Assembly: GCA_030068145.1 (NCBI GenBank)
Contig: JAPJBO010000675.1
Coordinates: 62,001-126,000, forward strand
Length of the DNA: 64,000 bases
Origin: Diplonema papillatum
Lineage: Eukaryota; Euglenozoa; Diplonemea; Diplonemida; Diplonemidae
Reading direction: 5' to 3'
Shown here: positions 22,956-63,542 of the stretch, in pieces
Layout: every line of letters starts with the position of its first letter
How positions within the stretch are numbered: position 1 is the stretch's first letter
Notes under the pieces: model-generated
The model's input: the letters and a program-made list of their open reading frames with translations, nothing else
What the model was told of the DNA's origin: nothing
The model's database searches: none
Program-made: the position numbers and the translations under genes

Positions 22956-25900
22956 ATGAGCGCGGGCCACGTGGACCCAGCGCCGGGGCGAGGCGGCGGC
23001 CCTACGCGGCGGACGGTGCCGGCGTCGCCGCCGCGTGACCTGTCGGCCTACGCGATGAACGGGCGCGCCACGTTCACGCGCGCCGCGCGCCGGCCGCAGG
23101 AGTGGTCGCCCCCCGCGCAGCGGCAGCAGCAGCAGCAGCAGCGGCCGGCGCCGGAACCGGCCCCGCACGCGACCTTCACGCCGAGCTCCAACCAGCGGCT
23201 GCTCGCGTCGCACCGAGAGCTCACCGCCACCCCCGTACCCACTCGGGCACCGGCTTCTCCCCTTTCCTCGCGGCCACGCACCGGCAAGACTGGCATCGCA
23301 TCTTCGCCGAAATCCGCGCCGCCCGCCCAGAAAACTCGGCAGCGGGACGTATCCCCGACTGCTATGGCCGGCAACGGCCAGCCACCCCCGCCGCCGGTGT
23401 ACTACTACAGCCCGGGGCGCACGGAGCGGGCCTCCGGGGGCCCGCAGGGCGGCAGCCAGCGGCTGCCGTCCGGCAGCCCGTCGCATCGGAGGAGCGGAGT
23501 CTTCGGGGTGCTGGAAGGGGCGCGGTCGGAAAGCTCGGTGTTCGAAGCGCAGCACAGCTCGCGGAGCCACGAGCGGGGGCTGCCGCTGACCGCCGGCGAG
23601 GCCAGGTTCGGCGCTGGCTGGCTCTCAGCCGACCAACCGCCCGCCGCGCCGCTGGCCGACGAAGCGCCGACCGAGGAGGTGGACGACGCGTCGAACCAGT
23701 ACCGCGACGCGTTCTGGGCGTCCGCCGCCGACGTCCGGCGCAGCTTCCTGGACGCGGACCCGTCGTACCTCGAGCACCGCGCAACCGGCCGGAACGCCAT
23801 GCGCATGCTCAACGGCCCCGCGACCCCCCTCTCGGTGTCGGGGGGCAACGACTCCGCGATGAACTTGTCGCAAACGCATGACCGCCGCCGCCTGCTCGAC
23901 GAGGAAGATGCGTTCGGCCCGGAGGTTCACGAGGAAGGCAGCGTCGACGACGAAGATCTCACGGCCGTCGCGCCCTTCGGGCTCCCCGGGTTCGCGGGGC
24001 ACCGCGGGGCAGGGTGCGGCAGCTCCGGGGGCGGCAGCGGGCGGGCGTCGAGCGACGAGTTTCTGCTGAAGAGCCCCGCCGAGGACCGGGCCGAGCGGAC
24101 GCGGCGGAAGAGCTTGGACGCCGGCGCCCCGGCGTTCCCGGCGCTCCTGCCGTCGCTCGCGAGCATGGGCGCGATCGACGCGGATTCGTCCTCGAGCGAC
24201 GGCCCGGCGAAGCGGTCGCGCGAGGACGAGAGCAGCCGGCCAGCAGACTCATCGACGACCGCGAGCCGGCAGAAGAACTACAGCCACGGGCGGCTATACG
24301 ACTCGGGTCACACCCACAGCCACGGCGGGCGAATCTGCGGCGCGTGCAAGCTGCCGCCGCAGCCGGAGGCTCTAAAAAAACGGACGCATTCCCTCTCCAG
24401 CGCGCCGTTCGTCTCCGCCACCGGCCGGCCCATGCACGAGCCGCGGGTGCAACCCCTCGAGCACGCCGACAGCGTGGCGACCTCTCGCCGCGGCAGCAAC
24501 GCGTCGAACGCGAGCACCGGCGCGTCGAGGAAGAAGAAAAAGAAAGCAGATCCGGGCAAAACGCCGCTGCCGCCGGGGAGCCCGGTCGCGCGGCGGGACA
24601 GCGCCGCTTCGGCGCACTCGGCCGGCGCGTCGAAAAAGGCTGGCCGCAGGAGTTCCAACTCCCCGCCACCGCACTCCGAAGCACCCGTCGACCGCAAGGA
24701 CAGCGCCGCGTCGCACCAATCTGGGGGGGTGTCGAAAAAGGCGGGCCGCGGGAGTTCGAAGTCCCCGCTGCCGGCGCACTCCGAACCACCTGTCGACCGC
24801 AAGGACAGTGCCGCGTCGCACCAATCTGGGGGGGCGTCGAAGAAAGCGTCGCCGCCGAAAAAGGCGGGCCGGAGGGCATCGAACTCTCAGCCCGTCGACC
24901 GCAAGGACAGCGCCGTCGTCGCGTCGCGGAGGGATAGCAACGCGTCGAATCACTCCGCCGGCGTCTCGAAGAAGGCGGGTCGGCGGAGTTCGAATTCCCC
25001 GCTGCCGACTACCCACTCAGAACCCGTCGACCGGAAGGACAGCGTCGCGTCGCGGAGGGATAGCAACGCATCGAATCACTCCGCGGGGGTCTCGAAAAAG
25101 GCGGGCCGGCGAGTGTCGAAGGAGGCGAAGCCGCTGGCTCCGGGGAGTCCCCAGGGGTCCCCTACGAGCCCGCCGGGCGACCGAAGGGGCAGCGACGCGT
25201 CGAGGAGGGACAGCAACGCGTCTAGTTACTCGACTGGGGTCGCGAAGCGGACGGCCCGGAAGTCGAAGCCGAAGCTGCCGCCTGGATCACCCGGCAGCCC
25301 GCTGTCGTCGCCGCGAATGGCGCACGCGACGCCGCCGCTGCCGCCGCGGCGGGCGGCGTCGTTCAAGCCGACGGCGTCCGAAGACTTCGCGGCGCCGCAC
25401 TCTCCCCTCCTCCGGCGACCGGCGTCCTTTACCGGGGACGCCGTGGCGCCGAAGAAGGCGCCCGCAGTCACCCCTCGCGCCACCGCGTTTAACAGCAAGT
25501 CCAAGCGGTACGCGCACACCAAGAAGTACGACGCTTCCGGCAAGATCAAAGCCGCCGCGAAGGCGGCCAAGAAGAAGGCGAAGAAGAAGGCGGACGCCGG
25601 CTCCGATGCGTCGGCCGGCGACGGCAACGAGAGCGACGGGCTGCTGAGGGTCGCGCAGACGGGACCGACGCTGTCGAACCCGGAGCTGTCGAGGACGGTT
25701 CCAGCGGACCCTTCCGCGGCGCGTGCCGGCCTCGCCCGGCGGAGCGAGACGGAGAGCGGCGAAGAGGACGAGGAAGGCGAGGAGGACGAAGACGTCATGT
25801 CGTGGACCGACAAGTTCTCCGGCTTCGCAGGCAAGGGGCTCGAGCTGCGCGAGGGGAGCGACCTGTCGCTCGCGTCGTGCCAGTCTCCGACGAGGAACAA

Positions 25901-26153
25901 CTCCCGCGCACCTTCACGCGGCGGCAGCGCCCGCTGGACGTCCGTCCAGTCGGCCCAAGAAGGGCCCGCGACCTTCACTCCGCAGTCGCAGCCGCTCATG
26001 CAGCACGTGTCGTTGCAGCACCTGGAGGGCGACGTTGCTCAATACTCGGCTCCCGACGACGCAGCTTCGCACACGGGAAGCTACGAGGGCAGCCCGCATT
26101 CCGTGGAAGCTTCCCCGAAGACGAAAAGCAGCTCGTGGCGATTGTTCGGCTGA
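22956..26153 (+). CDS. Low-complexity Ser/Lys/Arg-rich protein of unknown function
   Basis: One exon from ATG 22956 to TGA 26151, 1065 residues. The frame is open 36 codons further upstream, but this ATG heads the duplicated unit and has no closer in-frame ATG. The protein is Pro/Ala/Gly/Ser-rich with an N-terminal Gln tract (about residues 56-61). Residues ~545-725 hold about six imperfect copies of a 25-35 residue unit with cores S-K-K-A-G-R-R and D-R-K-D-S; many R-R-x-S sites look like targets of basophilic kinases. A Lys/Ala-rich helical segment lies near residue 865, an acidic run near 940, and the end is S-S-W-R-L-F-G. There is no catalytic domain, signal peptide or membrane segment. 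Likely an intrinsically disordered phosphoprotein, with function unknown. Tandem partial copies of both gene ends flank it. Confidence 0.8.
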   Translation: MSAGHVDPAPGRGGGPTRRTVPASPPRDLSAYAMNGRATFTRAARRPQEWSPPAQRQQQQQQRPAPEPAPHATFTPSSNQRLLASHRELTATPVPTRAPASPLSSRPRTGKTGIASSPKSAPPAQKTRQRDVSPTAMAGNGQPPPPPVYYYSPGRTERASGGPQGGSQRLPSGSPSHRRSGVFGVLEGARSESSVFEAQHSSRSHERGLPLTAGEARFGAGWLSADQPPAAPLADEAPTEEVDDASNQYRDAFWASAADVRRSFLDADPSYLEHRATGRNAMRMLNGPATPLSVSGGNDSAMNLSQTHDRRRLLDEEDAFGPEVHEEGSVDDEDLTAVAPFGLPGFAGHRGAGCGSSGGGSGRASSDEFLLKSPAEDRAERTRRKSLDAGAPAFPALLPSLASMGAIDADSSSSDGPAKRSREDESSRPADSSTTASRQKNYSHGRLYDSGHTHSHGGRICGACKLPPQPEALKKRTHSLSSAPFVSATGRPMHEPRVQPLEHADSVATSRRGSNASNASTGASRKKKKKADPGKTPLPPGSPVARRDSAASAHSAGASKKAGRRSSNSPPPHSEAPVDRKDSAASHQSGGVSKKAGRGSSKSPLPAHSEPPVDRKDSAASHQSGGASKKASPPKKAGRRASNSQPVDRKDSAVVASRRDSNASNHSAGVSKKAGRRSSNSPLPTTHSEPVDRKDSVASRRDSNASNHSAGVSKKAGRRVSKEAKPLAPGSPQGSPTSPPGDRRGSDASRRDSNASSYSTGVAKRTARKSKPKLPPGSPGSPLSSPRMAHATPPLPPRRAASFKPTASEDFAAPHSPLLRRPASFTGDAVAPKKAPAVTPRATAFNSKSKRYAHTKKYDASGKIKAAAKAAKKKAKKKADAGSDASAGDGNESDGLLRVAQTGPTLSNPELSRTVPADPSAARAGLARRSETESGEEDEEGEEDEDVMSWTDKFSGFAGKGLELREGSDLSLASCQSPTRNNSRAPSRGGSARWTSVQSAQEGPATFTPQSQPLMQHVSLQHLEGDVAQYSAPDDAASHTGSYEGSPHSVEASPKTKSSSWRLFG

Positions 26154-26600
26154 CAGTCCGAAGGAATGGAGTCCCACACGGCGAGGGCCGCATTTTCTCG
26201 TCGTCGATCCCACAGCAGCGAGGGACGTGCATCTTCACGCGGCGGCAGCGCCCGCTGGACGTCCATCCAGTCGACCCAAGAAGGGCCCGCGACCTTCACT
26301 CCGCATTCGCAGCCGCTCATGCAGCACGTGTCGTTGCTCAATACCCGGCACCCGACGACGCAGCTTCGCACACGGGAAGCTACGAGGTCAGCCCGCATTC
26401 TGCGGAAGCTTCCCCGAAGACGAAAGCCAGCTCGTGGCGATTGTTCGGCTGACAATCCGAAGGAATGACGTCCCACACGCATTTTCCTCTTCGTCGATTC
26501 CGACACTTCCCGCGCACCTTCGCGCGGCGGCAGCGCCTGCTGGACGTCCGTCTGGAAGACGATTTCCCCAGTACTTGGCATCTGACTACTAAACAACAAC
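26154..26600 (+). pseudogene. Two decayed copies of the 3' end of the preceding gene
   Basis: The final coding segment (from about 25912) recurs at 26234-26456, about 322 bases downstream, still ending in the same W-R-L-F-G-stop (stop ends at 26452). A third, shorter copy of the start of the segment lies at about 26517-26560. The copies contain small deletions; the middle one loses the Q-H-L-E-G-D part. These mirror the duplications at the gene's 5' end. Confidence 0.85.
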
Positions 26601-28583
26601 ACACGGGAAACCTACAATGACACCCCTGGCTCCGCAGTCGCGTGTTCAGGCTAACGACTTATAAGAAGTGAGGGGTTGTCAGGTTCCGGGTACCGGGGAT
26701 AGCCACCTTCAATCAACCATCAGAGGTACAGAGCGCGATTCGACCTGAAGCCCGTTCTCGCAGGCACGCGCTACTTCGTGAAATATCCCGAACCACTGAA
26801 CTCAACGCAACCCCACTTCCCCGAACTGATTGTATACTTTTGACTGACAAGCAACGAGTCCGGCTGATATACACATGGGTAGGTGCCAACCCCCCTGGTC
26901 CGAGCTGAAGATTGTCAAGGCACATACCCGTACCGAATCGAACGTCTGCTTGCCAGCTAGTGGCGCCGACGCCTAGCGTTGATACCCGTACACAGGCGGC
27001 TCTGAGGTGGCTTCAAGTCATTGCCCGCATTTCTTAGGAGGTCGGTTTTAACGGCTTTTAGGCCGGCAAGGAGCGGTTAAGGCCGCCCGAAGAAGGCACG
27101 AGAAGATGTTGAATGTGTAAATAATGTTGTCCACCGAAAAATATAAGAGTCAAAAAAAAACTACTTGGGTAATGCTTTGTCTCGCCACATGCCACACCCT
27201 AGCGTCTTTTGACTAAGCACCTGCTTTGTAGGAAATACTCGAGGATGCCCTCTCGTGAAAAGGGAAGGATAGAAACCACCTCTTTTTTTCCATACCAAGG
27301 GCTCAGGCTTAGGGCTGCGACTCAACGTTTCGTCTGCCTACAGATCTTACCCAGTTCCACCGATCTTACTTCAGTAGTCCCCCCTGCGGTGTATGTCCAT
27401 CTCACTTCGAGCCGTGTATCATTGTTTCCGGAGCAAACCCGTGTATTACCAAACCTGGCCTTCCTTCGCTCCTTTTGCTCCTTGTTGCGTTTGATGCACA
27501 CCGGGGACAAGCGCAGTGCTTGGAATAGTAGCGTGTGCAGAGAACTGGCCAGTGTCAAGATTGCAAGTCGGTGCAAGCCCGCGAGAGCCTCGGCTGTTCA
27601 TTGATAGCGCCGTTGCGCAGAATGTCCTCTGAGCGATCAATGAGGGGGTTTTGACACAGGACGCCACAGTGCATGCGAAACGACGGAAGGTCACGATACA
27701 GACTACAGCCGCCAATTCTTTGCGTTCTAGCCTCTAACTATCGCGGTGCATTCACCGTGTGTCGACACAAATAATCGCCTCACAGTTTTTTGTATTTCAT
27801 TCATTATCCTATGTAATGCAGGTAGCAAAAGAACACAAAAACAAACCGCCAACACCCACACATACGCACACACAACACAAATTGGGCGGCCTTCGGTGCG
27901 TACCCAGACGACACAGCTTTACGTGCGTCTGGGTCTGATTGAGTGCCGTGCCCTTCTTCTTTTCTTTTTTGCCAACAAGTAAACAAACCCCCCTAAAGCA
28001 AAGCCACGCGTTTGCTTTCCAGCCGTGGCAGGCCGCCCTCGTAGATCGTCACCCCGATTCCAACGAGGATCCTGCCCTTTCAGACTTCGCGTCTTTCCCA
28101 CAGCCATCCCACCAAAAATTGCTCTCTTGACTGCCCACGACACGAAAACACAACCGGAGACCATTTTGAATTCTTTGCGTTTCTTTTCTCTTTTTACTCA
28201 CGCTCACGTCCGTCACGGCAGAGGAGGGCGGGAAACCGGGTCCTCTCTTTGGATTCGTTAAATCCTGACTCCCGCAATCGAAGGGACCGGACAAGCAATT
28301 GGGGTCTATTAAAATATTCCCCAGTAGCAGGAGTTGCCCACTGTAAAGAAAAAAGAAGGGCGCTACAACCTGAACGTCCCCGTTTGGCGACACACTTAAA
28401 CAAGAAGATTTTTATACAGCAACCCCCTATATTTGTTCCTGCATCTTTTTCTTTGCTGATCTGGCGCTTCCTTTGTTTGTGCGCACCCTCACACCTGTTT
28501 TCTTCATCTAACGGGGAGAGAGGATAGTACGCTGCCATCGGTTTTTGTTCTTGTCACAATTGCATGTGCGAGACTCAAAAAGC
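26601..28583. other. Gene-free interval
   Basis: No supported gene. A remnant of element A left end lies at 27213-27250. The rest is AT-richer sequence with short non-protein-like frames on both strands. Confidence 0.5.
27213..27250 (+). mobile_element. Element A, left-end remnant
   Basis: TAAGCACCTGCTTTGTAGG followed by AAATACTCGAGG matches the first ~38 bases of element A; the rest is absent. Confidence 0.7.
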
Positions 28584-28880
28584 CCCTTGGAGACTTTGAA
28601 ATCCCGAATTTCTCAAGCGAATTTACTACCATCTCGCCTTAAAAGAAGGCGCCGTGAAGGTTGCGACACAAAAAAAAAAAAAAAATCCCCCCTCGAAGAC
28701 TTTGAAATCCCGGATTTCTCAAGCGATTTTTTTTTACTACCAACTCGCCTAAAGAAGGCGCCGTGAAGGTTGCGACACAAAAAAAAAAAAAATCCCCCCT
28801 CGAAGACTTTGAAATCCCGGATTTCTCAAGCGATTTTTTTTTACTACCAACTCGTCTAAAAAAAAAAAGGCGCCGTGAAG
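28584..28880 (+). repeat. Three tandem copies (~107 bp) of the phosphodiesterase leader
   Basis: Units start near 28584, 28686 and 28793. Each has GACTTTGAAATCCC, ATTTCTCAAGCGA, TTACTACC, a T or A run, and ends with GGCGCCGTGAAG. The third copy runs directly into the 5' leader of the phosphodiesterase 25 bases before its ATG. Homopolymer runs differ in length between copies. Confidence 0.9.
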
Positions 28881-28904
28881 ACACCCGTGCACACACGGGG
28901 GACG

Positions 28905-31900
28905 ATGCCGGGGTTCAGTGATTTGAAGCGGAACAGCGACCCGACGGGGTCGTACGTCCGGGTGGGCGCGTCCGGGTTCGGCGGCCGCGAGATCCCGTGG
29001 CGGAAGTCGCGGCGCGGCCGCCCGGTGGTGGCGGCGGCCGCGGAGGGGTTCGGCGGCGGTGGTGACGGCGGCCCGCGGGGCGAGGTGAAGCGGGCGCACG
29101 ACGCGATGCTCTCGCTGCGCTCGCACTGGCTCGGTTCGCCCGCCGGCCGCTCGTCGCTGCCGGCGTCGCCGGTCGCGGCGCGGGGGGGGGTCTGCGGGGC
29201 GCTTGGGGCGGGCTCCGCGCCCGCGAGCCCGTGCCGGCGGAAAATGCCGGCGGTGCCCCCGCTGACCGACCTGCCGTCGGCCGCGTCGTCGCCGGCCGCC
29301 ACCAGCCCGGCCTTCGCCAAAAAAGGGCTGCTCGCACTCTCCCTCGAGAACAGCATCAAGCTCCTCGAGGACCGCGACGTGGCGGCGGCGCCGTTCACCG
29401 AGAACGAGCAGGCAGCCGCCGGGCGGCTGCTGGACCTGCTCAAGGGAAAAGTCCCCATGCGGCCGCCCCTCCCGTCCGCCGCGAGGCCGAGGGAAAGGGC
29501 TGGAGACCCGGCCCGCCGGCAGAGCGTCGTGTCGTCGGAGGTGTCGGAGCTGTCGCCGAAGACGTCGCCGCGGGAGAACAGCAACGAGCTGGAGTACCAC
29601 AGGGAGTCCAGCCAGTCGTCCATGCAGTCCCACGATTTCGGGCGTCCGGCCGAAGTCCTCATGCAGAACGGGCCGGGGCTGGCGCAGGACGCCGACAATT
29701 CTCCCTCCGCCTCCCCGCGGTCGTCGCCGATCTCGTCGCCGCGGAAGCGGAAGCAGGCCGCCATCACGACCGCGATGATCTGCAAGCGCCTGCTGTTCAC
29801 CGGGCAGCTGCGGTCGAAGGCGATCCACGACATGCTCCTCGCCCTGATCATCGAGCTCGCTTCGATCCCGTCGGACTCCGTCGAGTTCAAGTACCAATAC
29901 ATACGCAGCCGCACTGCGCAGCTCGTCGGCGCCGAACAGTGCTCGATGTGGGTCGTCGACGAGGACTCCCAGGACACACTGATCGAGCTGGGCGGCGAAG
30001 AAGACGTCCACGAGTCATGTGACCGTAGGCAGTCGGCCCTCGCGGTTGTGTACCGGACGGGCGGCCACGTCTTGTATAGAAGGGACGACGGGGAAAAAAC
30101 CGACTCCGAAATCTCGGATATTGAAGGCGAAAACGGGCCGGAGGCTTCGAAGAAGAAAAGGCGGCTGGAGGAGGAGGACGACGCGTCCGTCAGGAGCGTG
30201 CTCGCCGTCCCGATCCTGCGCGACGCGAAGGTCACCGGCGCGCTGCGGCTGGTCAACAAGAGAAAAGGCACCGGGTTCGGCGAGGGCGACACGCAGCTGC
30301 TGGAGGCTGTGAGCATGATCACCTCGCTGCTGCTCCGCTGCGGGGTGCTGGACCACATCGCGAGGCGCCAGGAGGTGCGCGCGAAGGAGCTGCTGAAGCT
30401 CGCGTCCCTGATCGCCTCGGCGGACTTCGAACGGGACAACCTCATCGCCACCGTGATGGAGTCGGCCCGGGAGCTGACGCGGTCCGAAGGGTGCTCCCTC
30501 TTCATCCTCTCCGAGAACGGCCGTCTGACGCCGCACGGCGACGCCATCAAAGGGCCGTCGTCCATGGGCATCGCGATGCACGTCCTCCGGCAGAACGCCC
30601 CGTTGAAGGTCGACGATGTCGACACGCACCCGCTGTTCCGGTCCGGCGTGTTCAAGAAGCACAACACCGGGACAAAGTCGCTGCTGTGCCTGCCGGTCAC
30701 CTGCGAGAACAGCATCGTCGCCATCGCGCAGCTGACCAACAAAAAACGGGGCGCTTCGGTCGTCCGGTACTCGCAAGAAGACGTCGAGCTCTTCGGGTAC
30801 TTCTCCGTCTTCGTCGGCGTGTCCATCCGCAACCTAAAGCAGCACAAGCGGCTGCAGACGGTGCTGTCGAGGAATCAAGCGATCATGGCGTCGGTGCGCA
30901 GGCTCGCGGTGACCGACATGCGGGATGTTGAAGACGTCGTGCACAACGTCATCCAAGGCGCGAAGGACGTCGTCGCAGCGCAGAAGTGCGCGCTGTTCCT
31001 CGTCGACAAGGAGAAGAACGAACTGTTCGCCATCTACGAGCGCACCGACGACGACGCCCCGGACGGCTCGTCGTCGGGGCGGGCGAGCGACGAGGAGCGG
31101 GAGGGAGACCACGCGTCCCTCAGGTTTCCCGCGGGGAAGGGCATCGTGGGCAGCGTCGCGGCGACGGGCGAGGTGGCGAACATCCCGGACGTCAAGCGCG
31201 ACGCCCGTTACGACCCGGAGATCGACGAGACCGCAGGCGTGCACGCGAGCTCGATGCTGTGCCTGCCCGTCCTCCACAACGGGCAAATCGTCGCGGTCCT
31301 GCAGCTCGTCAACAAGGTAGAGCAGACCCGCCGCTCCTCCGTAACCTCCCCAGGCAACTCGCCCGTCAGCCTCCAAGCCCTCCTGCCGTTCGCCCAGCCG
31401 TCGCCGGACACTTCGCAGCCGAACGCCGCGCCGCCGCCGCCGAACGTGTTCACGAAGGAGGACGTCGACCTGTTCGTCGACTTCTCCGAGTTCGTCGGCG
31501 TCTCGCTGTACAACAACAAAATCTACCAGTTCGCGGTGTCCGCCCGCGACAACGCGATGCTGCTGCTCAAGATGCAGGACAAGCCGTCGGCGGGCGCGGC
31601 CGCAAAGGTCCGGCTCTGCTCGGAGGCCGACATCAGCGTGTACCAAAGCCTGCGCCTGACGGCCGCCGAGTGCGAGGTCGGCGTCACGCCCGCCTTCAAC
31701 ATCCACGCGCTGCACGCGGCGGCGCCCGACAAAGTCGTGCTCCTCCTCGTCGAGCTTTTCCGGGCACTCGGCTCGATCGACGATTTGTCCATCGACGAGG
31801 GCACCCTCCTCCGGTTCCTCGCCGTCGTGCGCTTGAACTACCGGCAGGTGCACTACCACAACTTTTTCCACGCGGCCGACGTTTGCCACACCATTTTCTG

Positions 31901-32815
31901 CTACCTGCAGTTCAACGGGTTGAAGGCACGGTTCACCCCAGTGGAAAGCTTCGCGCTGATGGTGACGTCGCTCGTCCACGACGTCGATCACATGGGGCTC
32001 AATAACTCGTTCCACTTCAAGACCGAGACGCCGATGGGCATCCTCTCGAACAGCACGGGGTCGTCGAGCATACTGGAGGTGCACCATTGCAACACAGCGA
32101 TTGACATCCTGGGCAATACGGCGTGCGACGTGTTTTCGTCGCTGTCCGACCCGGATAAGAAGCAGGCGTACAAGATCATGATCAACGGTATCCTCGCAAC
32201 CGACATGGCGCGGCACGTCGAGCTGCACGCCGCCTTCAACAAAATCACCGACCTGACCGAGTATTCCTCCGACGAGGCGAAAGGGGTGGCGATGCAGATG
32301 CTGCTGAAGTCGGCGGACATCAGCAACATCACGAAACCGTTCGACATCTCGAAGTGCTGGGCGGTGGCCGTGACCGAAGAGTTCTACTGCCAAGGAGACA
32401 AGGAAAGAGAGCTCGGGGAGGCCGTGTCGCCGATGTACGACCGGGAGCAGGAGGTGGCGCTCGCGAAGGGGCAGATCGACTTCATCAAAAACGTGGGGGT
32501 CGCCCACTTCTCGTCGGTCGTGCGCCTCTTCCCGGAGATGACGCCGTGGCTCACCAGCATGAACGACAACCTCGAACGCTGGGAAAGACAGCTGCGCGAA
32601 GCGACAGCAATCAGCTCATCGCCGATGCCACGAAAGGTATGTCCTCTTCCACCCACGAGGTCCCCCCCCACACTGCATTCCCGTGAAGCATGCTAGCATC
32701 AAACACACATGATGGATATCATCTTTTCTAGACTTTGAATAACCCGAGCTGGAGTTCGGACACGGGGCATCCGGAGCAAAGACACGTCAAAAAGGATCAA
32801 TGTTTGTTGCTGTGA
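28905..32815 (+). CDS. Class I cyclic-nucleotide phosphodiesterase with three GAF domains
   Basis: Exon 1 is 28905-32636. A 95-bp phase 0 intron (GTATGT...CTAG) probably leads to exon 2, 32732-32815, giving 1271 residues; exon 2 is less certain. Residues 1-300 are disordered and Ser/Pro/Arg-rich. Three GAF domains follow at about 302-489, 493-649 and 654-881, each with an N-K...D element (L-V-N-K, L-T-N-K, L-V-N-K). GAF1 carries an acidic Lys-rich insert. The catalytic domain (about 930-1225) has Y-H-N-F-F-H near 984, the class I signature H-D-V-D-H-M-G-L-N-N near 1025, S-A-D-I-S near 1136, and the purine-binding glutamine in G-Q-I-D-F-I. It should hydrolyse cAMP and/or cGMP to 5'-nucleotides with two divalent metals, with GAF domains as allosteric sites. 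Known animal and kinetoplastid GAF-PDEs carry one or two GAF domains. No membrane segment is seen. Confidence 0.95.
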
Positions 32816-33160
32816 AGAGATGTGTTCCTGGTGCTCCTTGGAAAGGTTTCCCGTTTTGGAGTCGTAAAACTCTCGAGTTTGACCTTCGATTCCCCGGAAG
32901 GCTTTCTGCGCGCTGGACAACCTCCCTCCCCTGGTTAAGGACCAGTCTGGTCCTCTAAGGGGCAGTCGGTCTGATTCGGAGGGAGTCACCTCAGGCGAGA
33001 GACTAAGACCGGAGAACCTGTTTTTTTTTGTCGTATAAGATCGCAGATCTTAGAAGATTAATATATCCGACGAATACCTAACACTCGTTACAGGTTGAAT
33101 AACCCCGTCGCTATCCCGAAAACATCGTAACTTCACCCCTCGCTTGCCTAAACAGTGTTT

Positions 33161-33373
33161 AAAACACCTGCTTTATAGGAAATACTTGAGGAGGCTGCCA
33201 GCTGCAAACGATCAACGGAGGTAAAATGTGCTGTAGCCCACACGAAACACAGGTGAATCTGGGTTCAGTGGCGGGCGTAAGCGTTCAACAAAAACGACCC
33301 ACTTTGTAGTTGCATTGTTTCTCCCCCTCTAGCCTCCTTCGAAGTAAGCACAAGGCAGCCCCTCGAGTATTTT
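33161..33373 (+). mobile_element. Element A, full-length copy
   Basis: About 213 bp, from AACACCTGCTTTATAGG through the conserved body (CACGAAACACAGGTGAATCT, GGCGGGCGTAAGCGTTCAAC) to CCCCTCGAGTATT. The two termini are inverted with respect to each other (GGAAATACTTGAGGAGG against AAATACTCGAGGGG). Confidence 0.85.
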
Positions 33374-34710
33374 TTTTGCATGCCACATCAACCCCACAGC
33401 TCGCCCACCGCCTTTCTATCCATCCGTTAAGCCAGAGTATCAGCATGTTTTCTGGCTCCTCCGACCCCACGCAGTTGACTCTGCAACTTCCTCATACGTG
33501 AGGAGCTGGGATTCGTTCGCACGACGGCTGCCGGTGTGGTTGATATCAGCACTCGGTATGGGTACCAGTGTTGTCGATGACCGACGACTCACTCTGTCCA
33601 GGCTACACTGGGACGAGTCAATCTGTACTTCGCAGGGATGCAGGGAAAAAGAGTATTGCAAAACACAACCCAGTCAGCAAAAAAAAGAAGGAACCAAGAA
33701 TAGTTGAGTTGCAGCTCTTGACAAAGATAGATGGAAAAAAGAAGGTGCTTTTATTCTTCGCTTTTTCTCACGAACGGGGGGGTCGGTCCTGCTTTTGGCT
33801 TTGTAGGTTCTCCCGACTCCCCTATTCGTGGTCAGCACAAACTCAAGAGGTCTAGTCAACTATTCCCTGCAGTATTGGCATACTTTCAATAACAATATCA
33901 ACAACAGCGGAAAATAAAGCAAGGGGTCGGCCTTCCATTGCGTCACACTCCCAAGCACATCGTGCTGCGTGCAAAACCAACCAATTCATTCTTTTCAAAG
34001 TAGTACTATAGTACTGAAGGGGACATTTCGGGAATGGGAAATTAAACGATGTCAACCAAAACGTCCATAACGTATTGATTTCAAGCATGCGAATACGACC
34101 TTTTCCCCCTACATACACCGAACTGAATGAATTCTGTGCAGAGACCCGAATTCCGGAAATGTTCCCCTCCCGAAACACTAAACTAAGATTTCCCCCCCCC
34201 CGCGAATTAGTGGACCCCAGTTGTAAGGGCCTTCTCCCTGACAGATTTGCCTGTGCTAACACGGGTGGTCTGGCTGTGACAAGCTATGAACATCCTGACA
34301 AACCAAAGTTCCGCGCTGATGATGGTCCGCCTTATGTGTCCGTGGCTTAAAGGACCGAAACACGGCGCAGACGGGTCCAGTGCGGTGTTGGTGGGATTGA
34401 TCCTCCCGCGAATCAATGGGCCCCAGTCAAGCCTCAGCTCACCAGGCGTTCGAGCTCCATATTTTGCCCACTCGGGCAAAGTCGGCTGAACGAGAGATGC
34501 TCAACACTTTGTGAGTTCCTTCACCGCAAATAACCAGCGGGTACGTGCCGTGCGAATTGCATGCCGGGCCGGAGGCCAATTCGTGCGCGTGTTAGCGTCG
34601 GCCTTGGGGTCTTTGTGCGCAGATTTGCGGGATGAAGCTCGCTGGTAGCGAGCGCCACCATTACGGATCTGAAGACCCTGCCGACGAAGGCGCAGCTCCT
34701 CCTCGGGCAC

Positions 34711-34957
34711 TTGATTGCAAATGAGCCCGGTACATTTGATGGCATTTCTGCAAACTACGGTGGGGCTGGTTTTACCGGTATGAAGTTCAAGGCCATCGCT
34801 ACGGAAACTGAAGCTGATTTTGAGGCTTGGGTGGAAGGAGTGAAAGCGGGATCAATTTGGTTCAATCAACAATGGTGTATTGGATCAGGCTTACTATGAA
34901 GCTCTTGCCGAACATGACCTAGATGCTCATCACGTTGAACCGACCTCGGGATGAGTA
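34711..34957 (+). pseudogene. cyoA: Frameshifted fragment of bacterial cyoA (ubiquinol oxidase subunit II)
   Basis: The first ~48 codons read as the conserved region of cytochrome bo3 ubiquinol oxidase subunit [18 protein letters not shown], then [12 protein letters not shown], then F-E-A-W-V. At about 34855 a frameshift occurs; another phase continues with the next expected part ([11 protein letters not shown]) up to a TGA near 34957. The N-terminal membrane and lipoprotein part and most of the copper-less cupredoxin domain are absent. The fragment is AT-richer in third codon positions than the genes here. Eukaryotes have mitochondrial cox2 rather than cyoA, so this is most simply a decayed transfer from a bacterium, or a chimeric assembly join. 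Confidence 0.8.
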
Positions 34958-36097
34958 AGCGGAGAGTAAGCGGAGGGCACTTCATTGCACGGGCCTCAAT
35001 TGCTTACCCCGCGCACAGCGCGCCACGAAACGTGGCACTTCGGTGCTGAAGCTTTCAGAGGGTAACAGTGAGGCCTCACCTCCCCGCCCCCTCTCCCTTC
35101 CTCCCTCTTGCGTGTGCGTCTGCCCCCCCGAAGTCTTGCAAGCTGGTGGATATTGGCAGCTCCCTATTGCACCGTGTTTAAGCCAGTCCCCACGAATCTG
35201 ACACTGCGACGCGCGGAAATACGACGTGGTACGGACACGTGGAAAGACCGGAAGATTCCGCGATCCACGTGTAGGGACACCGCGTGTTGAGAATGCACAT
35301 ACCATTGGAAGCACGTTCTTTTGCGTTGCCCACTCCCGCTTCAATTCAAGACCGGAGACTTGAAACACCGGCTTCTTACAAACACGAATCAGTCTTGTAC
35401 AGCGCGTATGGTTCTGCCGTGTCTTTCTTTCCGGATTCTCGGTCTTTTTTTTTAGAGTTAACAATGCATTGTTGGTACTAAAAATTAGTAGTTGGCAGCG
35501 TACTAAAAGCAACTCACCAAATCAGGTGAAAAGCCGCTAGTGCGCACAAACAAACCGTTCTGTCAAGAGCTTCAACTCAACTCCTGTTGCCACGCTCCAC
35601 ACCGTCGCCGAGCGCGTTCGCGCCCGATTTGTCGCTTCCACGGAGCACACACCACGCAACAAGAGAAGCTCAGCGAAAAGATTCGGGACTCTCCCCCTTC
35701 CCCTTCTATCTCTTTCTATTTTGCATCCCTTTCCTAGACAACATCTTCCTCGAAGAAGACTTGATGCTAGCATCAACCATGCCTGAGAGGCAGTGCTCTG
35801 CCTAAACATTAAACCAAGATTTTCCCCTTTACACGACGTGCCCGCCCCCTGCTCCGAAAGAACGCCCCTCCTGCGCCATTCCTCCTTTTCTTGCGTCGGA
35901 TTATTTCGGGCTCTATTTTGTTTTGAAGTCGAAGAAGGCCGTCTTGCCACGTGTAGGCTTGCTCCGACCACTGCACTCGGTGTGCCCGTCGTCGGTGCAC
36001 ACGGCGACAGCCCCACTCTGGAGTGCAAGCACGCGTTTATTGCTGCTGTTTGGGGGATCGCACTCGTGTGTCGGCAACATAGTGTTCTGTTCTTCAG

Positions 36098-36262
36098 CCA
36101 TCTGCGCACTTAACCATGGCTAAGAAGACGAACGAAAACGAATAGACACAAACAAAGCTCAAAGCACCTGCAGCATAACACTGTTGTGCAGTCTATCGTC
36201 ACAGATTGTTGCGTTAGTAGTAGGGAGTCAATTGCATGCAAATGAGTACCACCCTATGCTGC
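36098..36262 (+). repeat. Repeat C, partial copy, with an adjacent inverted repeat
   Basis: GCGCACTTAACCATGGCTAA begins the part shared with 50045, 53285 and 61563. After about 75 bases it diverges into TCTATCGTCACAGATTGTTG and an inverted repeat at 36219-36262 (GGGAGTCAATTGCATGCAAA then TGAGTACCACCCTA), a combination also seen at 48655-48750. Confidence 0.65.
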
Positions 36263-36328
36263 ATATCAAGTTCGAACAACGTCTACTTACAACGCTTCAC
36301 TTGTCTGGGAGAACGAGGGAAATGTTTT

Positions 36329-36562
36329 TGTATAAGCACCTGCTTTGAAGGAAATGCTTGAGGAGACTGCCAGTTGCGATAGATCAAAGGAGGTAAATGT
36401 GCTGTAGCCCACACGAAACACAGGTAACCCTGGGTTTAGTGGCGGGCGTAAGCCTTCAACAAAGCGTAAGCGTTCAACAAAAAAGACCCACTTTGTAGTT
36501 GTATTGTTTTCTCCCCCTCTAGCCTCCTTCGAAATGAGCACAAGGCAGTCCCTCGAGTATTT
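36329..36562 (+). mobile_element. Element A, full-length copy
   Basis: Full element with a local duplication of GCGTAAGCGTTCAACAAA in its body, ending CCCTCGAGTATTTC. Confidence 0.85.
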
Positions 36563-36768
36563 CGAGAGGATGGGCTCAGCGTCGCTGCAGCTGGGGATTC
36601 AGGCGAGGCGGGGGACTAAGAGGAGCCAAGCCTCTACGGTCAACCGGAGACTTTAAAATACCGACCTTCTAATCCACAAATAACGCTAGGAGGGCGGACC
36701 GGTCAGTGAGCGCCTTGCTTACAAATGCTTCAAACGTCCACAACGGCCCACAAGACCTTTTTCTTTTT

Positions 36769-36942
36769 GTATAAGCACCTGCTTTGCAAGAAACGCATGC
36801 GGAGGCTGCCAGTTGCGAAATCAAAGGAGGCAAATGTGCTGTAGCCCGCACGAAACACAGGTAAATCTGGGTTGCGGGCGAAAGCGTCCAACAAAGCGTT
36901 CGAGCCTCCTTTGAAATAAGCACGAGGCAGCCGAGTCTTTCA
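36769..36942 (+). mobile_element. Element A, shortened copy
   Basis: Left end and body are present with several changes (GGCAAATGTGCTGTAGCCCG); the segment between GCGTCCAACAAAG and the right end is deleted. The right end is degraded (GAGGCAGCCGAGTCTTTC). Confidence 0.75.
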
Positions 36943-37296
36943 GGGGGGTTTTGGCCTTCCACACCACAAAAGCAGGTCGCGAAAACAGCGCGGACGGTAG
37001 ACTTGAGTCCCTTCGCAACGCACTCTTGTGCTCTTATGCACACAACTTGCCTGGTTGCACGTGCGTCCTTCGCCGGAGTGAGTCGGTGCCTCTCGTCTCA
37101 CCTCTCAGGTTCGGCTACGTCATACCTTACCTAGCGCCCAGCAAAGTGTCATCCGTCTTAACCGCCGTGGGTTTCCCCTCTGCTTTTTGCGAGGTTTCCC
37201 TGTTGCTGGTTCTCGCTGCGGCAAACGGAGACGAGATCGGAGGAGAGGGGCATGGGACGGGCTGCGCCGCACTCACGGAGGCAGCCTCGCAAGCTT

Positions 37297-37466
37297 GAGC
37301 CGGTCCGTCCCTATCTCTTGAAACTGCATCGCAGTGCCTGCCGCTGTTTATCACAGTGAATCACGGTCCACCACGGTTTGTCAGGTCCGTCCCTAGTCCC
37401 TAGAGCTGCATCGAATTGCTGTATTCTTCGGTCTATCACGGTATCAAGAGGGGATGCACCGGCTCA
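37297..37466 (+). repeat. Repeat E, copy 2
   Basis: Nearly collinear with 20992-21180, including GCCGGTCCGTCCCTATCTCT and CACGGTCCACCACGG, with a 30-base deletion near CTAGAGCTGCA. Confidence 0.8.
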
Positions 37467-38105
37467 AAGCTGTCGCCGCCGGCGCGCCTTTTCCGGAGTT
37501 CCAGGTCAAAAAACAAAGCCAACTGCCGCGAAACGATCTTTTTAGTACTAACAATCCTGCGCGTTGCCCTTCAATGTATTGTGCAGGCTAAAAAGACGTA
37601 GGCAGCGTGTTTTGGCGGTTGATCAGAATTCCTTACCTGAATATACACAGGGTACATACAAGTGGGAAAACGATCACCCGGCACGCACAATCAAAACGAA
37701 GCGCCTGTCTTTTTTTTCTTGAAAGTATGCCTGCAGGGGATAGTTGGCTAGACCTCTTGAGTTTGTGCTAACGGGAGTCGGGAGAACCTACAAAGCCAAA
37801 AGCAGGACCGACCCCCGGGGGGCCAGTGGTTCACATGACAAGGGGATCGGGCCCCAGGTTTTCAGCCTCGGGTTTTCCCCTGTACAACTTCAGGTGAAAA
37901 ATCTCTCATCAAGGGGTTGGCTTTTTTTTTCGCATTTTTGGCAGGGGCCGCACTTTGGATCTGGGTCCGAATCACTCCGATCTTTCCAAATACGCCGTTC
38001 TCGGAAAGAATAAAAATGGGGTGTTCCTGAAAATGATACAGGGTACATACGAGTGGAAAACGATCAACCGGCATGCACATACAAAACGAAGCACCTGTCT
38101 GGTTG

Positions 38106-38230
38106 GTACCTGTTTTGTAGGAAATACTTGAGGAGACTGCCAGTTGCGAAAGATCAAAGGAGGTAAATGTGCTGTGGCCCACACGAAACACAGGTTAATC
38201 TGGGTTTAGTGGCGGGCGTAAGCGTTCAGT
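38106..38230 (+). mobile_element. Element A, 3'-truncated copy
   Basis: Runs from ACCTGTTTTGTAGG to GGCGGGCGTAAGCGTTCAG. The right end is missing. Confidence 0.8.
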
Positions 38231-38384
38231 TGTCGTTGTTTCATATTGTTATAGATGCGTTTCCCTTCCCTTGCCCCAGGCAAGACCTTGCCTGCCCGCA
38301 CACTGGACCGCTCATACGTCAGAAGGGGCCGAGGAGGGAGATGGTTTGGTCTTTGCCGCGGGCGGGTTTCGCGTTTTTTTTTTT

Positions 38385-38675
38385 ACATAAGCGCCAGCTT
38401 GAAAAGAAATGCTCGACGATGCTGCCCGACAAAGAACAGAAGGGATCCAAAGTGCTGTAACTACCGAACCACGTGTTGAACGGACGTGAGGTCATGCGGG
38501 TCTACCCCTACACGACAAATCACACAAACACAACAGGTCAAAAATCCTGAGTGAGAAAACAACACACGGTGGTGTAGGCGAAGAACAAATCAGGTTGTGT
38601 TTGTATTGTATTTGCCCCTTACCTCTATATTTCCCCCCTTCCATTCGGAGTCGAAGCAGCTACGTCGAGTATTTT
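38385..38675 (+). mobile_element. Element B, full-length copy
   Basis: Begins TTTACATAAGCGCCAGCTTG and ends GCTACGTCGAGTATTTT, about 291 bp. The termini are inverted: GAAATGCTCGACGATGCTGC at the left, and AAAATACTCGACGTAGCTGC on the other strand at the right. The body contains CACACGGTGGTGTAGGCGAA. Terminal sequences resemble those of element A (GGAAAT.CT.GA.G..GCTGCC), so A and B probably belong to one superfamily. Non-coding. Confidence 0.85.
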
Positions 38676-38772
38676 CCATCTATCTTTGTCAAGAGCTGCA
38701 ACTCAACTATTCTTGCCTTTTCCACGAAAAAGACTCGCGACCCCCCCTCGGCCCCTCTGCACTTTCTACGCA

Positions 38773-38911
38773 GTGAACTCCAGCCTCAGAAGTAAAAAGC
38801 GGGTGCGACACACCCACTTTTCGGGTGCACATCTACACGCGTTTTCGGTGTAGCACGCCCTGCGTCTCGGGCACACCCTCTTTAATTCCTGCTTCTGAGG
38901 CTGGACTTCAC
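38773..38911. repeat. Foldback sequence with 20-bp inverted arms
   Basis: The left arm GTGAACTCCAGCCTCAGAAG and right arm CTTCTGAGGCTGGACTTCAC pair with one mismatch across about 100 bases. A related but diverged sequence lies at about 49405-49540 (CAGCTTCAGAAGCG, CGGGTGCGCTACA, TAGCACCCGCTTTTT). Confidence 0.8.
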
Positions 38912-40194
38912 CGTACAACGTATTCCTGCTGGAAGCTGAAATCGCTCCTGTTGCTCTCTAACGTCATCTGCTGCGATGAAGGTCTAGTCGTTGCTTTAGG
39001 CAGGACTGAGGCGTGGGAAGGTGAACAGGGGCCACCCAATTTTTCGGTCTGTACGGCAGAGGCTATCTCTCTTCCTCCCAACAAGACCAAAGGTGGCCCG
39101 CGGTGCACATTCAAAACGCGTCTGCACAAGCCAAATATAGAAAGGACCGTAGTGGCAACGGGGCGAACACAAGTAGACAGACGCCGGCAACAAACTATAA
39201 GACACGCAAGCAAAAAAAAAAAAAAAAAAGACCAGCCAAAAAGTATGCGCAACCAACACCGGGGGAGGGGAAACGAGGCAACAACGACGAAAGGCATAGC
39301 CGGATCGTCTATCTTGTTAACCAATCGCCCGACAGTAGCCGCCGCAACAGGCGCAGTACGGAGGGAAGAGTGGTGACCGCAAGCTCCTTGGAGAGATGCG
39401 TCTCCCTCTCTCTGTCTCTGTCTCTCTCTCTCTCTCTCTCTCTGAAGCTCACCATCGCAAGGCTGTGGCGAATTGACTTTCTGCTGTCGCCGAACTCAGT
39501 TCGTTTGAACGCAATCTGGGTAGTATAATTACAGAAAATATATTCCAGCTCTTCACTGCAAACAAGCAAAGTCAGTCAGTGGGAGCACGCAGCGCTGCAA
39601 CCTGTCGAGAGTGTCGAACGAAAAAGAAGCGCAGGCCTGCACGAGTAGAGAACACACCCAGGCTCAGCGAAATTTGGGTACCGCGCCGCAAGGGTTCTGG
39701 ACAGCTTCATGGGGCTTTCGGTGCGCATGAGGTGGGTACAGCATGATTAGAGCCAATCTCTGCTTTCAGTTCGTGTATCTCGGTTCCTGCCGTAGCCTAG
39801 TGCAAAACAACGTGTGCGGGAGGGGAACGACGTTCCCGTATGCCGGAAGTGCGCTCTTTCACCCAGACCCAATCGTTTTCGGGCTGGGGTTGCTTCCTCT
39901 TCACGGGCACGGAAGTCTTGATTTTGTGGAAACAGTCCAGCGGGCTTGGAGTAAGGGAGGAAGTATGTAGCCCACACGAAAACTCGAGTGTAAAAAAAAA
40001 GAGCAAACAACAAAGTATATTCCTATACAGAACGACAGCCCAAACATGGCCACGTTAAAAAGTGGCTGCCTGACAACGAGTAGGACCCTCTGAATGCTCT
40101 ATTGCCACCTGAAACAACGCCCAAAATCTGTGTTCAGGGTGGTCAACGAAAACTGTAGCTTCTATTCCTTGTTCGTTTACATAAGTGTGGTTAT

Positions 40195-40652
40195 TAAGCG
40201 CCAGCTTGGAAGGAAATGCTCGACAATAACTGCCAGACAAAGAACCGAAGGGGTCCCAGGTGCTGTAACTACCGAACCACGTACGTGAGGTCATGCGGGT
40301 CTACCCCAACACAACAAATCACACAAACACAACAGGTCAAAAGTCCTGAGTGAGAGAACACCACACGGTGGTGTAAGCGAACACCACACGGTGGTGGAAG
40401 CGAACACCACACGGTGGTATAAGCGAAGAACAAATCATCATCATCAGATCGTGTTTGTATTTTTTGTATAAGTACCTGCTTTGTAGGAAACGCTTGAGAA
40501 GACTGCCAGTTGCGATAGAACAAAGGAGGTAAATGTGCTGTAGCCCACACGAAACAAGGTAAATCTGGGTTTAGTGGCGGGCGTAAGCGTTCAACAAACC
40601 TCTATATTTCCTCCCTTCCATTCGGAGTCAAAGCAGCTACGCCGAGTATTTC
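40195..40652 (+). mobile_element. Element B interrupted by element A
   Basis: Element B sequence runs from AAGCGCCAGCTTGGAAGG to TCGTGTTTGTAT, is replaced by element A at 40465-40598, and resumes with ACCTCTATATTTCCTCCC to CGCCGAGTATTTC. The CACACGGTGGT phrase is present three times (40368-40420) instead of once. Confidence 0.85.
40465..40598 (+). mobile_element. Element A nested in element B
   Basis: Starts TGTATAAGTACCTGCTTTG and ends GGGCGTAAGCGTTCAACAAA. It lacks the usual right end, so the nest could be an insertion followed by deletion or a recombination between A and B. Confidence 0.8.
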
Positions 40653-41503
40653 TGTTTTCCCGGGGTTGTAGAAAGAGAACACCAGTCAAACAAACCCCCA
40701 GGAGCCCCCTGCGAAAAGTTGCTCGGGACCAGTCGTGCTGTTCCGCTTCACGATCATCGCTCCAATCGAGTCATGCCATTCAACTATTCTCTCCATGAGC
40801 TTGCCTCGCTTTCTTCAGCTGTTCAACCGCAGCAGCAACAACCCCCTTCAATCGCGTTTCAACTTTTTAGTGTGACGACTGGACAGAGAGATGGTGCATT
40901 TCCGGAGCAACAGTTGCACATAAAAAGTCAAACGGGTGGTGTAATATTATGCCCGTGCGCGCGAGGTACAGGAATCTTCCGCTTCACGTGCTGGTCGCCC
41001 GTGCTTTGCTTCTCAATGCAAGCTACTACTAGAGGCGTTACTCAACACCGCAGCCACCCTTCTGCGTGTTTCGTGACTGCTGCACTCGGAGTTCTAAAGC
41101 CGAGGCACCTGCCCTTTTTCTGAGTCTACACCAACTCAAAGGGCTGCCTCGATTGGAGAAGTTCAAACAAACAGTAATCCGACTTCGTAATATCTGATAT
41201 GAGGCCGTTGTCTGCCGGCACCGTTAATGATTTTCAAACCAGGAGCAACAGTTGCAACCTCAGCAACCGTGGCCGGTCAAGCATAAGATGGCTCCGACGA
41301 AGAATGACGATCATCTTGGTGTTCGCATCGTAGAATACGAAGGAGTGATGGACTTTCTCTTCTTTTTGTGAAACGCAAACGTCCGTGCCTTCACCTAGGC
41401 ACAGCTACTTGCCGCCCCCCATCCGTGCGTGTGATTTGGTCGGTCTGTGTTGAACATGCCGAAGGCATGTTTTTGGATACGAAAAGTAGCGATCCCGCAC
41501 ACG

Positions 41504-41865
41504 CCTCGTCGTTTCACATACCCCGCACGAACTACGCAGCGTGATGGACCTTTCTTCGGAGGGGCTCACGCACTCAAAGATCGACTTATACGCAGGAACT
41601 ACGCAATACGGGGTGGGGCTACATTTTGATACTCCACATGCAGCTGGCGGCTAACTGAGTGTCTAAACGGTCCTGACAGGGCTTATATAACTTGCCACCG
41701 CGGCCAAAGAAAGTCCAGTACCCTTATAAGATGTAGCCCTCGTCGTTTCACATACCCCGCACGAACTACGCAGTGTGATGGACCTTTCTTCGGAGGGGCT
41801 CAGGCACTCAAAGATCGACTTATACGCAGGAACTACGCAATACGGGGTTTTCGGGGGTACCATCA
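41504..41865. repeat. Repeat D, two tandem copies about 234 bp apart
   Basis: The segment starting CCTCGTCGTTTCACATACCC at 41504 is repeated at about 41738, nearly identical for ~105 bases (GATGGACCTTTCTTCGGAGG, AGATCGACTTATACGCAGGA, ACTACGCAATACGGGG). Reverse-complement blocks match 16600-16840. Confidence 0.85.
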
Positions 41866-43382
41866 ATGAAAGTGAGAACTCGGGAAAGCCCTGGTTGTTG
41901 GTCACGCTTCTTGTCTACATTGCATTCCAACTTCAATCTACTTTATGCATCGACACCCCGCGACCTGTGATGGATGTTTCTGGCTGTGGCGAGCTGCGAA
42001 CAGCCGCCTGCGGCGAGATGCTGATGGCCCGCCCCATGCGTGCGTGCAACACGGGTGCTGACAGGACACGGTGTTGAGCAAATACCATTTCGAACACGTT
42101 TTCTTTTGCAATACCCCCCCCCCACCCCTATCCGGTGCTCCCCGCGAGACGGGCTCGCCCGCCAGCCAGAACGGCCCCCCGGCTGTGTCAACATCGACGC
42201 CGCCGCCCTCGGTAACGGGGCCGCGGCCCGCACCGCGCCTCCGACGGAACGGTCTACGCCCGCCTTAGAAGTACGTGGTAGTAGTGAGGCGACCGGAAAC
42301 TCCTCGGAGAGATGGTCCCTGCACTCCAACTCGTCTCTCTCGCTCTCTATCTCTTTCTCTCTCTGAACTTCTTACCTCGGGCTTATTTGGACCAGCGCGT
42401 GCAAACCAAGCGACCACTAGACTTACTAGCGCGGTGAAGTAACGAAGTTCACTCGAGTGACCGATGAAGCCCCTTGGCATAATACCACCCAACGACTGTA
42501 ACACGCATGCACAATGCCGGACGCTAGCGTCTGTCAAGAGCAAGCGTGGCACAGCCGTGTCTTAAAGGTGAGATGAGAGGCATTGGCTCACTCTGTCAAA
42601 GGACAATACCACTAGACTTACTAGCGCCGAAAAAGGTACAAATGCCGATACTACTACGGCCGTGATGAGACATGAGCCTGCAAAATAAAGGTACGGGCAG
42701 CTACAAGGCAACCCCTGCTCAACTTGTAGAACGTGGGGGGCCCAAGACTACACCACGAAGGAATGTACTTGGTGTCGGTCACAAACAGTCCCGGACATGG
42801 CTAGCCATAACCCATAACGAAAGCGTGCACTAAATATACAACCCGTAACCATATAGCCCTTTTCTTGCTCTAAGAGAACCCATTCATGAACGGTCACACG
42901 GAGCCTAAACCCCCGGAATTTCAAGCAAACCTTAACTCTAAAATGAAGCTGCCCGAACAATACAGTTCTTTGGGTGGGTGTTGCTGGTGCTCTTGCGGTC
43001 TGTTGTGGGTTTCGTACCTGACCAACAGGTCCACCCCCCGCGCGCCGAGCCCGCCTTTCGGTATAAGTTCGTAGAACTTCCCACGTCGTCCACAAAGTTC
43101 TTGACGACGTTCTTGATCCCTGTCTGTCTCTCTCTTTCTCTCTAATCTTTTTTCTTCTTTCTTCCTTTGCGGGGATTCTTCAAAAATTTCAAGCATTGCA
43201 ACTCTTCAATTTTGTGCTCACGAATGTGAGGGTCGACAACGAAGCGACTTTAAAAGATTGGAGCGAAGACTCAACCATTTCCCTCGTCATTTTCACGTGC
43301 GCCGTGCATAACGCGGGGTCGAGGGGCCCAGAAGGAGGATGCTTGGACGCAGTGTTTTTCCTGTGTGGCTAAAAAATATTTT

Positions 43383-43431
43383 TGTAAGCACCTGCTTTGG
43401 AGGAAATGCTTGAGGAGACTGCCAGTTGCGA
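43383..43431 (+). mobile_element. Element A, left-end remnant
   Basis: TGTAAGCACCTGCTTTGGAG through GGAGACTGCCAGTTGCGA, then unrelated sequence. Confidence 0.75.
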
Positions 43432-43785
43432 CCATCAGCCAATATTCGGGTTATCGCACCCACGACTGCCACTCTAGCCGACTTCATGAAACAACAACTC
43501 GCTTCTAGAGGATTAGCATACCAATCGACGCATGCAGGAACTATGTGCGGGAATTATGCAACATCGCAGAGAAGTCTAGATTACGTAGACCTCTCTCCGT
43601 GGTGTCTTGTATTGACCGGAGCAGGTGCTGGCGCCAGGAAACTAGTTCGGGGCCAACGTTCTGTTGGAGCACAAACAGACCCTGTTTCCCCAACGCCCTT
43701 ACCCGATCTTCTTGCTGCAGCGCGTTCTGACTGCCAAGTTGGCACATTCCAACTGCCCAAGTTTCACCCACTGCACTCCCAACTT

Positions 43786-43830
43786 GATGTCGAACCCGGA
43801 CAAGAACCCGGTGTCTTCGCAGCTGAAGCG
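43786..43830 (+). repeat. 45-bp copy of the zinc-finger gene start
   Basis: These 45 bases match 44233-44277, which spans the ATG and the first 14 codons of the gene at 44234, with two mismatches. The copy has its own ATG in an equivalent place but no further homology, so it is a fragmentary duplicate 447 bases upstream. Confidence 0.95.
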
Positions 43831-44233
43831 ATCAGCTACCAAGAGCCCAGCGGAAAGGCTGCGCATCCCGGCTCAAGCATGAGTTAAAGTCTAGCCCGAT
43901 ACAGTAAAGCTTCCTCCTATCCAACCCACCCCCCGCCCACCGACCACACGCACCAAGCTGAACCTCACGAAACAAACAACAGGTAGAAAGGCACCAATCT
44001 GTACGTCTCACGTCTCGGAAACACAAAAAATGTGTTCGAGCGTGTCGGTTGATCATCTTCCACTTGTTTTTAACTCTGTTTCATTTCCGATTCTGATCAC
44101 CGCCCGGCGTTGATTGTTGCAATAATGTTTAAATGCTAAGCAATTCTGAACAGGAGGTGGAGGGAGGCGCGCGGTGGTGTGTGCAACAGAAAGAAAAGAG
44201 CGGGGGGGGGAAAAAAAAAAGAAAGGTAGAACG

Positions 44234-62513: not shown

Positions 62514-63542
<1,029 letters not shown>

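Follow-up and report, generated by a model that had tools for sequence, protein, structure and literature searches.

The genome of the diplonemid Diplonema papillatum is described as about 280 Mb in size, with 52% repeats and with introns, mostly of the GT-AG type, in 41% of the genes (PMC10161547). Two kinds of foreign DNA are reported from it: at least 96 acquired bacterial genes, all of which are transcribed, and more than 1400 NUMTs, about 20% of which lie in introns and UTRs (PMC10161547). Primate NUMTs have been reported to enter natural chromosome breaks via end joining (PMC2567098). In insects, fragments of the Wolbachia genome have been described from nuclear chromosomes (PMC3798261). 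The transfer of bacterial DNA to a nucleus is of an already known kind, and what is new in the locus described here is the donor genus, the unselected state and the two-step history.

The locus contains a piece of the bacterial gene cyoA. Like the NUMTs, it is short foreign DNA found in an intergenic region and in an intron, but it comes from a gammaproteobacterium and not from the mitochondrion. With the acquired genes of D. papillatum, as these are described, it shares a bacterial origin, a grouping within a bacterial clade and a location on contigs with host genes (PMC10161547); in contrast, those genes are expressed, while the cyoA piece is fragmentary and its frame is broken. It resembles CyoA of Marinomonas at codons ~193-271 but lacks both ends of the gene. 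As with the Wolbachia DNA, a fragment of a bacterial genome resides in a nuclear chromosome. The Wolbachia fragments in insects stem from an inherited endosymbiont, whereas nothing indicates an endosymbiont for the cyoA piece. A search of one literature collection found no paper naming both Diplonema and Marinomonas, and searches that combined eukaryotic genomes with Marinomonas or cyoA showed no nuclear case in the titles and abstract openings of the papers listed. Taken as a whole, the history of the piece was very probably a neutral bacterial insertion at a chromosome break, followed by nuclear duplication and decay.

The window, that is the whole stretch of 64,000 nucleotides that was analyzed, corresponds to C675:62001-126000, and the assembly searched comprises 271,365,524 bases in 2,910 contigs. 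The earlier note had placed a recognizable cyoA fragment at 34711-34957. The core of this stretch stands, but the borders now lie at 34708-34944, and the final 13 bases (34945-34957) have no counterpart in the Marinomonas sequences compared. The 237 bases of 34708-34944 (+ strand) share 85% DNA identity with codons ~193-271 of Marinomonas arctica cyoA and 91% amino-acid identity with its CyoA over 80 residues. All three peptide pieces named in that note belong to one + strand frame, and the translated database search it proposed matched CyoA profiles and a CyoA structure well beyond chance. Specifically, this first frame is matched by the NCBIfam families NF007816 (PRK10525; E 3e-19) and TIGR01433 (CyoA; E 7.2e-14), and its best PDB match is CyoA (1cyw, 8.8e-16), which establishes sequence homology to CyoA, subunit II of cytochrome bo oxidase. 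Both profile scores are far under the full-length cut-offs because only a fragment is left, NF007816 giving 69.3 bits vs a cut-off of 511. Pfam gave no above-cut-off match for the piece.

No complete, intact cyoA is present. The piece comprises ~79 of ~348 codons, about a quarter of the gene, the first ~192 and the last ~77 codons are absent, and there is no start. The first part (34708-34857, + strand) consists of 50 codons in one open frame ending VKAGSI and is included in a frame at 34636-34899. The frameshift and continuation of the same protein that had been claimed were both found: a deletion between 34857 and 34858 has removed 2 bases in comparison with M. arctica as well as with a second host copy, and past it the CyoA reading resumes at 34859 in a shifted frame and extends to 34944. 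This second part (34858-34944, + strand; 31 residues) has no NCBIfam or Pfam match when taken alone, and its kinship to CyoA follows from the Marinomonas alignments.

The borders of the piece to host DNA are sharp on both sides when compared with four Marinomonas genomes. When 34601-35300 was compared by blastn with the best 80 related loci, M. arctica aligned over 34708-34944 with 85% identity and a single gap of 2 bases; among the alignments returned, only one extra base, on the left, aligned beyond these positions. Likewise, the regions 33000-37000 and 25000-44999 of the window matched four of four Marinomonas genomes at the cyoA piece only. The GC content of the piece, 46.8%, is close to the 45.2% of the matching M. 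arctica piece; it is 58% in the 500 bases to the left, 61% in the adjoining tail and 50.8% in the 500 bases beyond the tail, so the piece stands out less clearly from the DNA beyond the tail.

The donor genus is Marinomonas. A scan of a collection with one genome per species gave at least 597 pattern matches and at least 476 confirmed relatives, of which the best 80 were kept. The top 13 of these 80 are all Marinomonas; their best segments, of 76-81 residues, are 71-91% identical. None of the other 67 exceeds 67% where at least 68 residues are covered, and over 46-49 residues values of up to 80% occur. Of the 48 Marinomonas genomes compared, 34 match the piece and 14 gave no match. Since the best of them still has only 85% DNA identity, the exact donor was not found among these genomes, and the fragment is too short for the donor species to be named.

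Phylogenetic analysis, which had been suggested as a means of naming the donor group, places both host copies among Marinomonas. In a DNA tree with 13 Marinomonas and four outgroup rows they fall in a 15-row Marinomonas cluster (99/99). In a larger tree of 37 rows they fall inside a 24-row Marinomonas cluster (100/100). The input to the larger tree included 13 Marinomonas and five outgroup loci from the best 80 together with 30 loci from genomes of the genus; 13 of these 30 were dropped as identical, and four further weak matches in genomes of the genus gave no locus. In this tree, CyoA of eight genomes labelled Marinomonas (L119, L121-L127) falls outside the 24-row cluster. Within the cluster, the host copies share a smaller group of eight rows with M. 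arctica, M. shanghaiensis, TW1 and M. aquiplantarum, at 94/86 and under the starred level. Placement within the genus is not certain, given the unstarred branches of the 37-row tree and the long outgroup rows flagged there.

Contact between Marinomonas and marine protists is ordinary. OTUs likely to represent Oceanospirillum and Marinomonas are reported from three ciliates (PMC4826875), and M. blandensis has a 'Vacuoles' entry in a table of protist co-cultures, where it is called a non-pathogenic case (PMC12175539). The diet of D. papillatum is described as 'seemingly strictly eukaryotic' (PMC10161547), and for this reason the source could equally well have been a bacterium attached to prey, or free DNA, as the endosymbiont or food bacterium originally proposed.

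The assembly contains one other cyoA copy, at C1249:7868-8277 (- strand), which matches window positions 34727-35172. It begins seven codons later in cyoA, stops at the same cyoA codon as the window copy and carries the same tail of ~230 bases. In the window this host-type tail occupies 34945-35172 (+ strand). It was duplicated with the cyoA piece to C1249, and part of it is also found without cyoA at C227:72484-72662, giving three places in all; the counts of two for the cyoA piece and three for the tail are lower bounds. The two copies differ at 7 of 205-206 cyoA sites and at 4 of 202 tail sites. All 13 Marinomonas agree with C1249 at 34759 and 34893 and with the window copy at 34801, 34817 and 34820, while 34770 and 34848 vary among them. 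Two indels are private to the window copy, namely the 2 missing bases and an 11-base tandem duplication at 34953-34974 (+ strand; GAGTAAGCGGA twice), which is single in C1249. The C1249 copy in turn lacks 11 cyoA bases and 14 tail bases, and those 14 exist on C227 with one change. Since substitutions and indels differ between the copies, each copy decayed on its own. The earlier interpretation of a decayed bacterial gene from past transfer is thus borne out by the donor genus, the eukaryotic surroundings and the two separately decayed copies.

The C1249 copy and its tail are located in the intron of an intact two-exon gene. The gene model, which was made from the sequence alone, predicts on the - strand an exon 1 at 8978-8438, a GT-AG intron of 2,239 bases and an exon 2 from 6198. 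Residues 5-395 of the 395 in the predicted product align with 3wqc (7.5e-88), and the product resembles D-threo-3-hydroxyaspartate dehydratase, with 298 bits to PDB entries of this enzyme vs 180 bits to a D-serine dehydratase entry. This gene may itself be a transferred bacterial gene. The region 1-9999 of C1249 has no match to the four Marinomonas genomes outside the cyoA piece. On C227, pieces similar to window positions 34308-34390, 34960-35136 and 35124-35151 occur in a different order within ~560 bases (about 4109-4663 of locus L010). They adjoin a tandem array of the CTCTAGTAAGG type and form a patchwork of short repeated stretches.

The state of the piece is not that of a working gene. 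Compared with M. arctica, 34 of 237 sites differ, distributed over the three codon positions as 5:3:26, and this excess of third positions indicates that the divergence mostly arose in bacteria under selection. The seven changes between the host copies are distributed 2:3:2, as would be expected for dead DNA, although seven changes are a small basis for judging selection. An intact frame under selection was not found: the piece is a fragment with a frameshift. It would appear not to be a gene and to have no likely function. Because about a quarter of the gene without a start remains, it could not have made CyoA, and cyoA is not known to be of use without its partner subunits.

It might be proposed instead that a transferred cyoA, or an exon domesticated from it, once worked in this nucleus and was later lost, leaving a remnant. 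The window piece can still be read well in two frames, and on C1249 (9047-8118, - strand) an open frame of 310 codons links exon 1, across the beginning of the intron, with the cyoA copy. Retention of this intron would produce a fused tail, but the open frame is probably due to chance. Moreover, only ~79 of ~348 codons are present, both copies end at the same cyoA codon, the changes between them show no third-position preference, and the assembly searches yielded nothing else from the cyoA locus. A formerly working gene is therefore highly unlikely.

A Marinomonas read from the culture, wrongly joined into the contig, would also yield a short piece with its best relatives in one marine bacterial genus. 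Such a chimera or contaminant would not account for two contigs that share both the piece and its host tail and yet differ there in substitutions and indels. It would also leave unexplained why, when full-length CyoA (Pseudoalteromonas, L005) and 6,240 M. arctica bases around cyoA were searched against the 271-Mb assembly, only the two fragments were matched. The genome searches score the best candidates only and skip very common words, so the absence of further pieces is no proof. Judged from these comparisons, an assembly join or contaminant is very improbable, and the piece appears to be truly nuclear.

The surroundings of the piece are consistent with a nuclear location. Upstream lies a stop-to-stop frame for a cyclic-nucleotide phosphodiesterase with GAF domains (28860-32696, + strand), which provides a eukaryotic setting. 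Pfam analysis of 10 window frames gave eukaryotic domains, with no lineage indicated; a PDB search of one window frame gave no match, and no Rfam family reached the gathering score in the window. The left flank (34380-34707, + strand) was found at a single place in the assembly. Neither the left flank nor the tail matches the four Marinomonas genomes compared or the plasmid collection.

Entry by way of a virus or phage carrying cyoA was considered as well. Ten phage records do match, but the best reaches 70%, none is named for Marinomonas, and a scan of viral contigs for close relatives gave three pattern matches and no relatives. The plasmid and phage collections contained only more distant CyoA, at most 69.6% among the matches listed. 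Eight of the ten phage matches (H21-H30; CyoA or its kin) are without annotation, and all ten records resemble DNA of bacterial hosts that was submitted under a phage label. Judged from the records searched, a viral carrier is extremely improbable.

Instead, a short cyoA piece from Marinomonas would have been built into a diplonemid nuclear chromosome, most likely as filler during the repair of a double-strand break, by analogy with the primate NUMTs, and perhaps through end joining aided by short sequence likeness. An imperfect direct repeat of 15 bases may be relevant here. Its left copy (34705-34719, + strand; GGGCACTTGATTGCA) consists of three outside bases and the first 12 bases of the bacterial piece, and 14 of its 15 bases are identical to the right copy (34975-34989, + strand; GGGCACTTCATTGCA), which is host-type DNA starting 31 bases past the right junction. 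Such a repeat would fit short-homology joining in break repair, or a target duplication. Both copies are suggestive only: the repeat was equalled by 110 of 20,000 random window placements, and the comparison was made once the repeat had already been seen, which makes it no more than a hint.

At a later time the piece, together with ~230 bases of adjoining host DNA, would have been copied into the intron of a different gene, losing part of its left side, after which both copies would have decayed with no visible selection. The C675 stretch contains all of what is present in the C1249 copy, which makes an insertion on C675 followed by a shortened copy to C1249 the simplest order, although a third copy, lost or unassembled, could be the source of both. 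Retroposition was dropped as an origin of the second copy, as no poly-A was seen and the right ends of C1249 and C227 differ.

Spread by a transposable element of the Helitron or MULE type, with the tail as part of the element, would compete with the copying step only and not with the bacterial origin. The piece and the tail did move together, the tail is present in three places, and D. papillatum is reported to have such elements (PMC10161547). Against this, the matched stretches on C1249 and C227 have different end points, no more than two cyoA and three tail copies were found (lower bounds), and by eye only the 4 bases GCAC flank the C1249 copy on both sides. Neither terminal inverted repeats nor common ends in many copies were observed, with 0 inverted pairs in either cyoA locus (that of the window and that of C1249). 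Element spread is accordingly rather unlikely as the route to the second copy, which is better seen as a nuclear duplication.

Screens for horizontal transfer seek working genes, so mainly the winners are seen. A piece that does not function, whose donor genus can be named and of which a second copy is decaying, gives direct evidence that raw bacterial DNA enters a protist nucleus. It is conceivable, but doubtful at present, that this piece is one visible part of a steady, unselected influx of DNA from environmental bacteria, Marinomonas included, along the same break-repair route as the more than 1400 NUMTs. If so, the expressed transferred genes would be those few that selection has kept from a large pool of scraps, and some scraps would be copied again between loci. 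A count of them would measure the influx ahead of selection and reveal whether bacterial DNA is still taken up by organisms described as not feeding on bacteria.

Several further observations were made in the assembly and in the window. The core sequence of the diplonemid spliced leader has 323+281 = 604 exact copies in the assembly and none in the 64,000-base window; the reversed control has 0. A literature search for the sequence used found none. The core is preceded by ACCAACGATTTAAAA in three of three loci read and followed there by GC, GC and GT, so many of the 604 may represent retrocopies that carry the leader, as opposed to leader genes. A search of the assembly for the light-harvesting family gave no match. 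Pfam COX2 (PF00116), which fails on the cyoA piece in any case, missed it in the assembly and gave one match, a mitochondrial-type cox2 piece at C560:98339-98437 (TLYGQCSEVCGALHDYMPLCM) on a 151-kb contig, with TGA read as Trp. This is probably a NUMT of a cox2 module. The leader copies point to a diplonemid host, probably D. papillatum, and the reading of TGA as Trp and the lack of a light-harvesting match agree with that species. In the window, 15-mers from 14219 onward recur 230-310 bases downstream as a local repeat, and 62610-63224 is a long CT-rich simple repeat with open frames of Ser-Leu and Arg-Glu.
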